Below are positions 25,287 through 31,200 of a stretch of 64,000 nucleotides of DNA, in pieces. The notes beneath the pieces are model-generated. The model did no database searches and was not told the DNA's origin. It saw only the letters and a program-made list of their open reading frames with translations. Location of the stretch: the NCBI RefSeq assembly GCF_000384235.1, contig NZ_KB913033.1:2239164-2303163 (forward strand), in the 5' to 3' direction. Numbering within the stretch: position 1 is the first letter of the stretch; each line of letters opens with the position of its first letter. The stretch is from Hydrogenovibrio halophilus DSM 15072. GTDB lineage: Bacteria; Pseudomonadota; Gammaproteobacteria; Thiomicrospirales; Thiomicrospiraceae. The translations under genes and the position numbers were made by a program.

Positions 25287-27956
25287 ATGTCTGATACGAA
25301 CCCGGCACGGAATTTCTACCACACTTTGAACCACCAGTCCCGGCGCGATTCACTGAGCGCCGGGCGCCATCTGCTCAAGGAATTCAACCAGCAGCAGTTC
25401 GATCAGTTTGATCAAGGCCAACCGATTGAGACCCTGATCAAGGAACGCACGTCGTTCATTGACCAGATGCTCAAAAAAATCTGGGGCCATTTCTTTCCCC
25501 AGGACGCAGACCAATCCGATCTGTCATTGATTGCGGTGGGCGGTTACGGCCGGGGCGAACTGCAGCCCTATTCCGACATTGACCTGTTGATACTGGGTGA
25601 CAACAAACACCAGCACACCGACACCATCGGCGACTTCATCACCTACCTTTGGGACCTGGGATTCGAGGTCGGTCATGCCGTGCGCGATCTGGAAGAGTGC
25701 ATCACCGCCGGCAAAGCGGACGTGACCACCGCCACCAATCTGCTGGAAGCCCGGTGGCTCAGCGGCAACTACGAAGCGTTCATCTCTTTGCAAAACCTGT
25801 TCAACTTGAAGCAGTTCTGGCCCAGTCAGGCGTTTTTTCAGGCCAAACTGGCCGAACAGGCCCAGCGCCACAAGCGCTACCACAACACCCTGTACCAGCT
25901 GGAACCGAACATCAAGGAAAGCCCGGGCGGACTCAGAGACATCCAAACCATTCTCTGGGTCGCCAAACGCCACTTCGGGGCCAGTTCGATTGAAGAGCTG
26001 ATGCAACACAATTTCATTACCCTGAACGAATACAAGGAAATCCGGGCCGCTTACCTCTATTTGAACCGGATTCGCTTTGCACTGCACCGCCTGCGTCAGC
26101 GCCACGAAGACCGACTGTTGTTCGACAATCAACAGAGCCTGGCCGCCAGCATGAACCCGGAACCGATCGAAGAGGTTTCCAAAGCGGTGGAAGCCTTTAT
26201 GAAGCCGTATTATCAGAATGTGCATGTGGTCGCCCGTCTGAACGAAATTCTTTTGCAGCACTTTCGAGAAGAGATTTTCGATACCGGCGAGGAACGGATC
26301 GAACAGATCAACCCGCGTTTTCGTCTGGTGGACGATTACCTGGATGTGATCCGACCCAATCTGTTTGAGAAAAACCCGACGGCGTTGCTGGAAATCTTCA
26401 TCATCCTGGAAAACTACGACCACCTGGTCCAGGGCATTCGGTCACGCACCATTCGCCTGATTCGGGACAACCTGCATCGCATTGACGATCAGTTTCGTGC
26501 CGACCCGATCAATAAAGCCCTGTTCATGGAAATCTTCCGTCAGCCCAAAGGCGTCAATGCCGCGCTCAGCCGCATGTATTTCTATGGCATTCTGGCCGCC
26601 TACCTGCCTGCTTTTGCGCGCATTACAGGCTTGATGCAGTTCAACATCTTTCACGCCTACACGGTGGACGAGCACACCATGCTGGTGATTCGCAATCTGC
26701 GCCGCTTTTATCTGGACGATTACGCTTACGAATTCCCCACCGCGCATCAGGTCGCCAAACAGATTTGCAAGCCCGAAATTCTGCTGTTGGCGGGTCTGTT
26801 TCACGACATAGCCAAAGGCCAGAAAGGCGACCATGAAAAACTGGGGGCCATCGACGCCAAGGAATTCAGTTTCCGGCACAATCTCAACCAGCGCGATGCG
26901 CACCTTTTGAGCTGGCTGGTACGTCACCATCTGGAATTTTCCTATGTGGCCCAGAAAAAAGACCTGTCCGACCCAGAAATCATCGCACAATTCGCGGCCA
27001 AAATGGGCACCCAGGAACGTCTGGACTACCTGTACCTTCTGACCCTCGCCGATGTGTGTGCTACCTCGGACGACGTCTGGAACGACTGGAAAAACCAGCT
27101 GTTTCTGCAACTGTACCACTCCACCACCCAGGCACTGGATGCGTCACAGACCTTGCCGCAGGATCGGGCCAAACAAGCGATTTTCCACAAGGAAAAAGCC
27201 AGCGAACTGCTCAAACAGTACGGTCTGGCCTCCTCGGCCTTTCAGCCCTTCTGGAAAACGTTTGAAAACACCGACTTCTTCAGCCGCCAGACCCCCTCGG
27301 AAATTGCCCGCATCACCCGCAACCTGTATCAGTGCGACCCCAATGACATCAACCTGCGAATGCAAAGCCGGACCAATCGTGGTGCCACGGAACTGATCAT
27401 TTACATGCATGACCGGGAATACCTGTTTTCGCAATTTACCCAGGCCCTGGACCACTTCAGTCTCAACATTGTCGAGGCCAAGATTTATTCCGGCGAAAAC
27501 AATATGACACTGGTCATCATCTACCTGCTGGATCACGATCACTGCCCCATTACCGATGCCAACACGCTGGAACGCACTCAAACCGCCCTGCTGACCGAAC
27601 TGGAACACCCGCCTCAGGACAGGCCGCTGACGCACTCATTGCCGCCGCGCCGCATTCGCGTGTTTGAAACGCCGACCGAAATCCATTTTCACCCGATCAA
27701 CGACGAATTGACCGAACTGAGCATCACCACCAAGGACATTCCCGGCCTGCTGGCCAAAATCGGACAGGGATTCAAACAGTGTCAGATCAAGGTGCATGAC
27801 GCCAAAATCAACACCATCGGCGAACGCGCCGAGGATGTTTTTCAGATCAGCACACTCAATGACGACGGTCTGACCCGATCCGAAAGCAAGGAGCGACTGG
27901 CCCAGAGCCTGCTGGATCTGATTGAACCATCAGGTCAAGACACTCACTCCGGCTGA
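25287..27956 (+). CDS. glnD: Bifunctional uridylyltransferase/uridylyl-removing enzyme GlnD
   Basis: GlnD senses glutamine and adds or removes UMP on PII proteins, setting nitrogen assimilation. The 889-residue product has the nucleotidyltransferase motif GGYGRGELQPYSDIDLLI (residues 85-102), an HD domain with LFHDIAKGQKGDHE (about 510-525), and two C-terminal ACT domains (about 700-780 and 810-880). The ATG follows AAAGG at good spacing. It lies after map, as in E. coli, and overlaps the convergent VOC gene by 13 bases. Confidence 0.96.
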   Translation: MSDTNPARNFYHTLNHQSRRDSLSAGRHLLKEFNQQQFDQFDQGQPIETLIKERTSFIDQMLKKIWGHFFPQDADQSDLSLIAVGGYGRGELQPYSDIDLLILGDNKHQHTDTIGDFITYLWDLGFEVGHAVRDLEECITAGKADVTTATNLLEARWLSGNYEAFISLQNLFNLKQFWPSQAFFQAKLAEQAQRHKRYHNTLYQLEPNIKESPGGLRDIQTILWVAKRHFGASSIEELMQHNFITLNEYKEIRAAYLYLNRIRFALHRLRQRHEDRLLFDNQQSLAASMNPEPIEEVSKAVEAFMKPYYQNVHVVARLNEILLQHFREEIFDTGEERIEQINPRFRLVDDYLDVIRPNLFEKNPTALLEIFIILENYDHLVQGIRSRTIRLIRDNLHRIDDQFRADPINKALFMEIFRQPKGVNAALSRMYFYGILAAYLPAFARITGLMQFNIFHAYTVDEHTMLVIRNLRRFYLDDYAYEFPTAHQVAKQICKPEILLLAGLFHDIAKGQKGDHEKLGAIDAKEFSFRHNLNQRDAHLLSWLVRHHLEFSYVAQKKDLSDPEIIAQFAAKMGTQERLDYLYLLTLADVCATSDDVWNDWKNQLFLQLYHSTTQALDASQTLPQDRAKQAIFHKEKASELLKQYGLASSAFQPFWKTFENTDFFSRQTPSEIARITRNLYQCDPNDINLRMQSRTNRGATELIIYMHDREYLFSQFTQALDHFSLNIVEAKIYSGENNMTLVIIYLLDHDHCPITDANTLERTQTALLTELEHPPQDRPLTHSLPPRRIRVFETPTEIHFHPINDELTELSITTKDIPGLLAKIGQGFKQCQIKVHDAKINTIGERAEDVFQISTLNDDGLTRSESKERLAQSLLDLIEPSGQDTHSG

Positions 27957-28330
27957 AAAAACTCCAGTGCATGATGATCCGGGTCCCGGCAGAAAAGCGC
28001 CGCACGCCCGGAACGGCTTTCGGTGTAGGTCACTCCGGCCTCATCCAGACGCTGTTTGATCCAGCCCAGGTCCGATACTCTGAGCGCAAAATGCTGGTCC
28101 CGCCCACCATGAGCCGGCAGTTCCGTTGCTGGCACAATCGCTCTGGGGTCAGGCAAAGCCAGCAAGTGCAATGCCTGTCCGTTTGCGCCCAGTGCCAGCC
28201 ACGCGCCTGAAAACCCCAAATCCGGACGCGCCAGTCTGGCCAGCCCCAGTGTCTGCTCATAAAAGGCCAGCGAACGCGCCAGGTCCGATACCAGCAGACT
28301 CACATGATCCACGCCATTTATCACATTCAA
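27944..28330 (-). CDS. VOC (glyoxalase/dioxygenase fold) family protein
   Basis: The 128-residue product is a single vicinal-oxygen-chelate domain: GVDHVSLLVSDLARSLAFY at the start, QHFALRVSDLG in the middle and a DPDHHALEFFQ end, which would supply the His/Glu metal ligands. Substrate cannot be told; such proteins range from lyases to antibiotic-binding proteins. The start appears to be TTG at 28330 with GAGGA eight bases before it. It converges on glnD and stands alone. Confidence 0.82.
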   Translation of the reverse strand: MNVINGVDHVSLLVSDLARSLAFYEQTLGLARLARPDLGFSGAWLALGANGQALHLLALPDPRAIVPATELPAHGGRDQHFALRVSDLGWIKQRLDEAGVTYTESRSGRAALFCRDPDHHALEFFQPE

Positions 28331-28498: not shown

Positions 28499-29326
28499 AT
28501 GTCGGACAAACTGAAAAACATCATTGAAACCGCTTTTGAACAGCGCGCAGAGATCACTCCGAAAACCGTGGACGCCGAAACCAAAGCGGCCATTGATGAG
28601 ACCATCGGCCTGCTGGATTCGGGCGAAATGCGTGTGGCCGAACAAAAAGGCGTTGGCGACTGGCAGGTGAACGAATGGCTGAAAAAGGCCGTGCTACTGT
28701 CTTTCCGCACCCAGGACAATCAGGTTATGAACAGCTCTGAAACCCGTTACTTCGACAAGGTGCCTTCCAAATTTGTCGACTGGTCGCAGGCCGATTTTGA
28801 ACAGGCCGGCATTCGCGTTGTGCCGCCCGCTGCGGCCCGCCGCGGCTCCTACCTGGCACCCAGCACGGTAATGATGCCGTCTTACGTCAACATCGGCGCT
28901 TACGTCGACTCCGGCACCATGGTGGATACCTGGGCCACGGTCGGCTCCTGTGCCCAGATCGGCAAAAACGTGCACTTGTCCGGCGGCGTCGGCATTGGCG
29001 GGGTCCTGGAACCCCTGCAGGCCGCGCCGACCATCATCGAAGACAACTGCTTTATCGGTGCCCGTTCCGAAGTGGTCGAAGGGGTCATTGTGGAAGAAGG
29101 TTCGGTGATTTCCATGGGCGTCTACATTGGGCAATCCACCCGCATTTACGATCGCGAAACCGGTGAAATCCATTATGGCCGCGTGCCCGCCGGTTCGGTC
29201 GTGGTCTCTGGCAACCTGCCTTCCAAGGACGGCAGCTACAGCTTGTACTGCGCCGTGATTGTGAAAAAGGTGGACGCCAAAACACGCAGCAAAGTCGGCA
29301 TCAACGAACTGCTTCGTGCCATCTGA
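28499..29326 (+). CDS. dapD: 2,3,4,5-tetrahydropyridine-2,6-dicarboxylate N-succinyltransferase
   Basis: DapD makes N-succinyl-2-amino-6-ketopimelate in the lysine/diaminopimelate pathway. The 275-residue product has a helical N-terminal domain and a left-handed beta helix ([20 protein letters not shown], then [15 protein letters not shown]). AGGA precedes the ATG. The next gene encodes DapE, which acts two steps later in the same pathway, so this is a small dap cluster. Confidence 0.96.
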
Positions 29327-29389
29327 ACCCGGACCCACTCGTGATCGCCAGTCACAAAAGCTGGCGATGAAACAGGCAAAAGGAACCCT

Positions 29390-30979
29390 ATGACTGTGCG
29401 TTTGTACGGCTTGAGCAACTGCGACCAGGTGCGCAAAGCCCGAAAATGGCTGGAAGCCGAAGGCATTGCTTTCGATTTCATTGATTTTCGAAAAGCGGCT
29501 TTTCAGCCTCAGGCGATTCAACAGTGGCTGACACAGACGGAGCGTAACGCCATCGTCAATCCGGCAAGCAAGGGTTGGAAAGCCCTGTCGGAATCCGAGC
29601 AAGCGGCCTTGATGGCACAAACCGATTCCGATTTTTCCATGGCCTTGCACCAGCAGCCCACTCTGATCAAACGCCCGGTACTGGAAACCGAAAAAGGTTT
29701 GGTATTTCGTTTCAAACCAGAGGCATACGCCGATGTTCTGAAGTCGATTCCCACGACTTGGCAGCGCCTGCACGGTCTGCTTTTTCCGTCAGGAGACAGA
29801 CCGATGACCGCTGCAACACTGTCCGACCACCCTGCACTGGCGCTGGCTCAGAAACTGATCCGAATCGATTCGGTCACACCGGATGACAAGGGCGCACAGC
29901 CATTGATTCAATCGGAACTCGCCGAACTGGGGTTTAAGGCGGAAACGCTGCAATACCAAGAGGTCACCAACCTCTGGACGGTGCACTCGGCCAGTGGTGC
30001 GTCAGACGATGCGCCGGTGTTTGTGTTTGCCGGCCACACCGATGTGGTGCCCACCGGTCCGATTGATCAATGGGAACACGACCCCTTCAGTGGCTTGATT
30101 GACGCTCAGGGCTGGTTGCATGGGCGCGGCTCGGCCGACATGAAAAGTTCCGTCGCGGCTTTTGTGGTGGCCTGTCGCCGTTTTATTCAGAACTTTCCTG
30201 ACTATGGCGGCCACATCGCCCTCCTGATTACCAGTGACGAAGAAGGACCGGCCATACACGGCACCAAAGCCGTGGTCGAAACGTTGCAACAGCGCGGTCA
30301 GCGCTTGGATTACTGTCTGGTGGGCGAACCCACCTGCAGCCAGCAATTGGGCGATGTGATCAAAAACGGCCGTCGCGGTTCCATGACCGGCGAGGTTCGA
30401 ATCAACGGCATTCAGGGGCATATTGCCTACCCGCATTTGGCCAGAAATCCGGTGCATGAACTGGCACCGGCCCTGTCCGAACTGGTCGGCACCGAATGGG
30501 ATCAGGGCAACGCCAATTTTCCGCCCACCTCGTTTCAGGTTTCCAATCTGCATGCGGGCACGGGTGCCACCAACGTCATTCCGGGCCATTGCGATTTGAT
30601 GTTCAATTTCCGTTTCAGCACCGAGCAGACACCGCAAACCCTGCAGGAACAGGTAACCAAAATACTGGACCGTCACGGTCTGGATTACGATGTGGACTGG
30701 ACGGTTTCCGGCCTGCCATTTGAAACCCCGAAAAATGGGGAATTGGTGCAAGCGGTCAGTCAAGCGATTGAAACGCACACAGGCCATCAGCCGGAGCACA
30801 ACACCGGCGGCGGCACTTCCGACGGACGTTTTATTGCCCAGACCGGCGCGCAGGTATTGGAATTTGGTCCTTTGAACGCCACCATTCACAAAATTGACGA
30901 ACGCGTGGCCGCACAGGATATCATTGATCTCACGGAGATCTACTACCAGACACTCCGAAACCTGTTTATCGGGAGGTGA
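29390..30979 (+). CDS. dapE: YffB (ArsC/Spx-like) fused to succinyl-diaminopimelate desuccinylase DapE
   Basis: One 529-codon frame joins two proteins that are separate neighbours in E. coli. Residues 1-118 or so are a YffB-type thioredoxin-fold ArsC-like protein (LYGLSNCDQVRKARKWLEAE with one Cys, INPASKGWKAL-like segment). Residues 139-529 are complete DapE, a di-zinc M20 peptidase that frees LL-diaminopimelate; it shows FAGHTDVVPTG, WLHGRGSADMKSS, TSDEEGPA and NTGGGTSDGRF. A strong internal ribosome site and ATG lie exactly at the DapE start, so either a fusion, a separate DapE, or both may be made. Confidence 0.9.
   Translation: MTVRLYGLSNCDQVRKARKWLEAEGIAFDFIDFRKAAFQPQAIQQWLTQTERNAIVNPASKGWKALSESEQAALMAQTDSDFSMALHQQPTLIKRPVLETEKGLVFRFKPEAYADVLKSIPTTWQRLHGLLFPSGDRPMTAATLSDHPALALAQKLIRIDSVTPDDKGAQPLIQSELAELGFKAETLQYQEVTNLWTVHSASGASDDAPVFVFAGHTDVVPTGPIDQWEHDPFSGLIDAQGWLHGRGSADMKSSVAAFVVACRRFIQNFPDYGGHIALLITSDEEGPAIHGTKAVVETLQQRGQRLDYCLVGEPTCSQQLGDVIKNGRRGSMTGEVRINGIQGHIAYPHLARNPVHELAPALSELVGTEWDQGNANFPPTSFQVSNLHAGTGATNVIPGHCDLMFNFRFSTEQTPQTLQEQVTKILDRHGLDYDVDWTVSGLPFETPKNGELVQAVSQAIETHTGHQPEHNTGGGTSDGRFIAQTGAQVLEFGPLNATIHKIDERVAAQDIIDLTEIYYQTLRNLFIGR
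29791..29806 (+). promoter_or_regulatory. Internal ribosome site and ATG at the DapE domain start
   Basis: AGGAG (29791-29795), eight bases, then ATG (29804-29806) in the same frame as the upstream YffB part. Starting here gives a 391-residue DapE of normal length. Confidence 0.7.
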
Positions 30980-30984
30980 CCGCT

Positions 30985-31200
30985 ATGAGCACAACCATTT
31001 CAGTGGTATTACAGATTCTGGCCGTGGTGCTTCTGCTGTTTCTGATCTGGCCGCACATCAAAAATGAAAAATGGAAAGAAAAATTCATCGACAACAAACA
31101 GGCCCGCTCGGTCCTGATTGTGTTTATTCTGGTACTGGCTTTGGTGGTCGGCGTATCCTGGCTGATGGATGCACTGATTCCGCTGGAACGCCTTGATTGA
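30985..31200 (+). CDS. Small two-helix membrane protein
   Basis: The 71-residue product has two hydrophobic segments (about residues 6-22 and 43-62) separated by a charged KNEKWKEKFIDNKQ loop. No family is recognised. The ATG at 30985 is set by GGGAGG at 30971-30976, which also carries the end of dapE; a GTG just before is too close to that site. It lies between dapE and the cNMP-fold gene and is probably cotranscribed with both. Confidence 0.65.
   Translation: MSTTISVVLQILAVVLLLFLIWPHIKNEKWKEKFIDNKQARSVLIVFILVLALVVGVSWLMDALIPLERLD

Follow-up and report, generated by a model that had tools for sequence, protein, structure and literature searches.

An open frame joining yffB and dapE in Hydrogenovibrio halophilus DSM 15072 retains the start signals of dapE

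Analysis of a 64,000-nucleotide stretch of the Hydrogenovibrio halophilus DSM 15072 genome (hereafter the window) indicated that a YffB-type gene and dapE form a single open frame of 529 codons on the forward strand (29390-30979), within which the start signals of dapE are retained. The frame, its two domains, the start signals and the separateness of the two genes in the relatives examined were all observed. The explanation we prefer, with a probability of about 0.6, is that loss of a stop codon joined neighbours of a dap cluster in one lineage and that the surviving dapE start probably lets the cell make free DapE as well as the fusion. The first-pass annotation of this DNA had noted that no stop lies between the genes, and that AGGAG, an eight-base spacer and an ATG stand at the dapE start. 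Both points were confirmed: 138 codons precede the ATG at 29804-29806, which is codon 139 of the open frame, and the spacer reads ACAGACCG (Table 1).

Table 1. Features of the fused frame and its upstream neighbour, in window coordinates
Feature	Position	Strand	Basis or remark
dapD, upstream neighbour	28499..29326	+	TIGR00965, 504.6 bits (cut-off 375.4)
AAGGA, Shine-Dalgarno sequence of the yffB start	29380..29384	+	5 bases 5' of ATG 29390; duplex energy -5.6 kcal/mol
YffB-type ArsC-family domain, residues 1-118; cysteine at residue 11	29390..29743	+	PF03960; match to PDB 1rw1; confident model domain
Codon 119 (TCG), end point of yffB in relatives; proposed former stop, one substitution from TAG	29744..29746	+	sequence; lengths and tails of yffB in relatives; end of model helix
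Linker, residues 119-138 (20 residues)	29744..29803	+	low pLDDT; no counterpart in WB1 (14-base gap)
T5 run, candidate site of an indel error	29781..29785	+	sequence
AGGAG, internal Shine-Dalgarno sequence of dapE	29791..29795	+	sequence; -7.4 kcal/mol
ATGA, in which the internal start ATG of dapE overlaps a +1-frame TGA	29804..29807	+	three-frame reading; ATG aligned with the WB1 dapE start
Complete dapE, residues 139-529 and stop	29804..30979	+	NF009557, TIGR01246

Profile searches assigned the two parts of the protein with different precision. The amino-terminal part scored above the gathering cut-off of the ArsC family (PF03960; residues 6-115, 38 bits, cut-off 24) and matched PDB 1rw1 with an E value of 3.6e-16. 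Although its match to the YffB equivalog NF008107 (PRK10853) spanned the model (residues 2-117), the 76.6 bits fell below the cut-off of 121, and we therefore refer to the domain as YffB-type rather than as a filed member; the Spx/MgsR group model TIGR01617 was also narrowly missed (72.9 bits, cut-off 75.05). The remainder scored well above the cut-offs of both proteobacterial DapE models, NF009557 (residues 148-526, 537.2 bits, cut-off 284) and TIGR01246 (residues 150-525, 521.6 bits, cut-off 361.8). Residues H216, D250, E284, E285, E313 and H500 were invariant in a 25-row alignment, and we take them, from the positions in H. influenzae DapE, to be the zinc ligands and the catalytic glutamate. 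A structure predicted from the 25-row alignment as one chain (mean pLDDT 89.9, pTM 0.72) contained two confident domains, with residues 124-137 of the linker below a pLDDT of 50 and the relative placement of the domains left unfixed by the model. Solved relatives are 8f8o and 3ic1 for DapE, and 1rw1 and 2kok for the YffB type.

The YffB proteins of Pseudomonas aeruginosa (1rw1) and Brucella melitensis (2kok) have an ArsC-type domain with the motif GX3CX3(K/R), as does the window protein, and were proposed to be glutathione-dependent thiol reductases; their structures are solved and they bind glutathione, with the substrate still open (PMC3169414). Whereas the P. aeruginosa and B. melitensis proteins are single-domain, the window protein carries DapE behind a domain that misses the NCBI equivalog cut-off.

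Two minor features of DapE were common to the window and its nearest relative, Thiomicrospira sp. WB1. Both have a five-residue insertion near SASGASDDAP in the alignment, and in both the DapE start lies seven residues upstream of the start in most aligned relatives.

Comparison with WB1 and with more distant relatives pointed to a candidate site of the change. The 119-codon yffB of WB1 terminates with TAA, 14 bases ahead of a dapE that lies in a different frame. The length of yffB was 112-122 codons in 38 of 39 relatives (32 from the family and seven from the class; lengths are approximate where no start was found), the exception being a gene of 151 codons in the fragmented genome G015. The last helix of the YffB domain ends at residue 117 in the model, and a stop would therefore be expected at codon 119. 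No strain shows the former stop, and a TAG to TCG change at this codon is put forward as a proposal. The WB1 spacer aligned poorly to the linker, whose GC3 of 0.60, beside 0.59 for yffB, carries little weight over only 20 codons. A match of WB1 dapE beginning at residue 120 was considered as a shared linker and rejected, as the DNA showed it to be the end of WB1 yffB plus the spacer, read in a different frame.

The gap between yffB and dapE ranged from 1 to 349 bases in 38 relatives (one locus without a dapE start was left out of the gap and Shine-Dalgarno comparisons) and exceeded 20 bases in 34 of them. At gaps above 20 bases, reinitiation after the upstream gene is expected to be negligible (PMC10666635), and on that account dapE normally starts on its own in these 34 relatives. 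The 14-base gap of WB1 permits reinitiation by the same account, so WB1 dapE may depend on more than its own start.

The internal ATG of the window aligned with the dapE start of WB1. A bare AGGAG-N5-9-ATG pattern is not rare, with eight occurrences in the window against 7.4 expected and at least eight in 40 of 100 shuffles; the pattern gains weight here because it stands on an ATG aligned to the WB1 dapE start and because its Shine-Dalgarno strength and weak local structure are jointly rare. The duplex energy at codon 139 was -7.4 kcal/mol, compared with -5.5 for WB1 dapE and -6.1 for the strongest of the 38 relatives. Local folding was -6.6 kcal/mol, close to the mean for 23 ORF-first ATGs (-6.5) rather than that for 389 internal in-frame ATGs (-11.9). 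Among those 389, drawn from 44 window ORFs, nine were as strong in Shine-Dalgarno pairing, 48 were as open, and one was both, namely codon 19 of a 129-codon ORF, which is possibly a true start. Pairing of equal strength was found at 13 of 423 internal ATGs in 47 window ORFs, so the Shine-Dalgarno sequence alone is not decisive. Both ORF sets were hand-picked, the 44 as conserved with WB1. The combination of strong pairing and openness was absent from the other internal ATGs of the fusion frame, and codon 139 is start-like by position, Shine-Dalgarno sequence and openness. Start signals thus stand at an internal in-frame ATG, as in infB, clpB and cheA, bacterial genes whose two in-frame starts were tested and are long established. 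The likeness to these genes is that of one frame from which two products, one long and one short, are predicted; the difference is that the yffB-dapE case is a gene join in one genome, known from sequence.

The distribution of the two genes indicated that the join is specific to this lineage. A family search of 62 genomes, tallied from its rows, found one fused frame (the window), 55 genomes with the genes side by side but separate, four without an adjacent pair and two without a match; a gene-order search covered the same 62 genomes. The separate pairs comprised 12 with both halves in one matched frame containing stops and 43 with two neighbouring matches; 32 of the 55 were measured on DNA and 23 were placed in different frames from match coordinates. 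In the four genomes without an adjacent pair, all of one genus (g2), DapE was found alone or the halves lay on different contigs. In a class sample of 369 genomes including the window, no second stop-free row spanned both domains among the matches listed, and at least ten rows spanned both with one reported stop; at least ten genomes being one reported stop from the same frame, the step appears easy. A scan of genome contigs returned WB1 and four distant loci, with no second strain.

Several candidates for a second fusion were rejected. In a phylum sample of 398 genomes, 286 had a YffB match, and among the matches listed four besides the window had frames above 400 codons (G450, G507, G549 and G779), with no DapE match in the surrounding 4-5 kb. 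The open-frame figure of 443 for G015 was explained by a stop between the genes. The fusion thus occurs in one of 62 family genomes and in no other species among the class and phylum matches listed, which supports its being rare, and it is known from one genome of one strain. The literature searched contained no report of a yffB-dapE fusion, most subscription papers lying outside its coverage.

These counts bear on two suggestions of the first-pass annotation. It had recommended looking for the fusion in relatives, and the genes proved separate in all 55 other family genomes that have them side by side; the physical link that it drew between YffB and diaminopimelate synthesis consequently did not hold as a conserved one and is better described as a lineage-specific join. 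Its statement that yffB and dapE are adjacent in E. coli agrees with the order yffB-dapE-ypfN given in PMC7648144. E. coli and the 55 family genomes have the same two genes in the same order and on the same strand, with a stop between them, whereas the window frame runs through. The order dapD-yffB-dapE was kept in the window, WB1 and G015, the three loci checked for dapD, and in the window both glnD and dapD lie upstream of the fusion frame on the same strand. In G779, a YffB-type gene (L059, 1059-1406, forward strand) lies between an aminotransferase gene and a DapD-type gene, both judged by eye, with no DapE within 4 kb; YffB there keeps dap company even without dapE.

Based on these observations, we suggest that yffB lost its stop either through a substitution, such as TAG to TCG at codon 119, or because the spacer was remodelled. 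With the spacer in frame and free of stops, yffB would then read on into dapE, and ribosomes starting at yffB would make a 529-residue YffB-linker-DapE protein, putatively active. Reinitiation after yffB would have disappeared along with its stop; other ribosomes may use the retained Shine-Dalgarno sequence and ATG to start at codon 139 and make an ordinary DapE of 391 residues. Judged from the sequence, the fusion together with free DapE is the likeliest outcome, and the proposal of the first-pass annotation that the fusion, free DapE or both may be made is plausible. The sole match in the genome to the fusion query at E <= 0.001 was the fusion itself, and the dapE match was single. Deletion of dapE is described as lethal in Helicobacter pylori (PMC5919655) and Mycobacterium smegmatis (PMC4791643); if DapE is essential here too, it must come from the fusion frame, whether fused, free or both.

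It is possible, though we think it doubtful, that the fused frame is real but that the cell depends on free DapE initiated at codon 139, the fusion being a tolerated by-product and yffB a waning gene. The strong internal start would suit this account, and yffB (residues 1-113) had the highest pN/pS against WB1 of the three genes compared (0.27, with 0.19 for dapE and 0.03 for dapD); dS was 1.0 to 2.5, near saturation, so these ratios reflect a long history rather than the time since fusion. In addition, the YffB motif N-x-R-S/G of 13 aligned relatives (mostly NKRST) reads NPAS (NPASK) in the window and WB1. However, WB1 shares this change with an unfused yffB, and it therefore predates the fusion. 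Moreover, yffB is intact in the window, with an excess of synonymous change and with its cysteine and Shine-Dalgarno sequence kept.

A sequencing or assembly error that put a single extra base into the linker, for instance in the T5 run, is unlikely. In the three-frame reading, removal of one base would let yffB terminate at the TGA within ATGA, giving a 4-base overlap. Such overlaps are common between coupled genes and, with 1-base ones, form by far the commonest arrangement (PMC10666635), and frame changes seen in a single genome are often errors or recent indels (PMC3711429). The genome, however, looks finished (a single contig of 2,356,686 bases with a listed completeness of 100%). Only three of 69 long conserved window ORFs matched WB1 in more than one frame, namely the fusion and two antisense shadows, and the reverse comparison of WB1 ORFs with the window gave one of 68, also antisense. 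Without the length filter the counts were seven of 129 and one of 114; the four further window ORFs were judged, from where they lie, to be shadows or to have had their starts set too far upstream, and the window sequence looks clean. If such a base were removed, yffB would still be about 138 codons long, compared with 112-122 in 38 of 39 relatives, so an unusual tail would remain.

It is very unlikely that ribosomes arriving from yffB occlude a vestigial internal start and that all DapE is made as fusion: yffB has its own Shine-Dalgarno sequence, ribosomes that no longer stop before dapE cannot reinitiate there, and M. tuberculosis DapE tolerated a short N-terminal tag with which it was purified and characterised (PMC4791643), but the pairing and openness at codon 139 are typical of a start and 34 of the 38 relatives must, on the reinitiation estimate above, start dapE without help from yffB.

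Returning to stop loss with both products made, the join appears to be a one-off accident of gene order and not a new system. A further step, that the join is in use, with YffB acting on or beside DapE, the two starts setting the ratio of tethered to free enzyme, and the internal start kept or strengthened after the loss of reinitiation, seems to us improbable. A useful tether is possible, the one hint being the shared neighbourhood. YffB has been proposed to be a thiol reductase and has no known partner, and its natural fusion to DapE, its usual neighbour, provides a ready-made construct with which to test for cooperation between the two; the locus is also a clean case for asking if an internal start remains in use after loss of the preceding stop. 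Since a single genome does not amount to conservation, the case carries limited weight.

Two small ORFs lie close to the genes described. Directly behind dapE, 30985-31200 on the forward strand encodes a small hydrophobic protein of 71 codons, whose last 69 codons as query matched no Pfam or NCBIfam family; its 71-codon counterpart in WB1 overlaps the end of WB1 dapE. Between glnD and dapD, on the opposite strand (27944-28330), is a small ORF that is kept in WB1 with at least 73% identity and that, judged by eye, resembles a glyoxalase-type protein.
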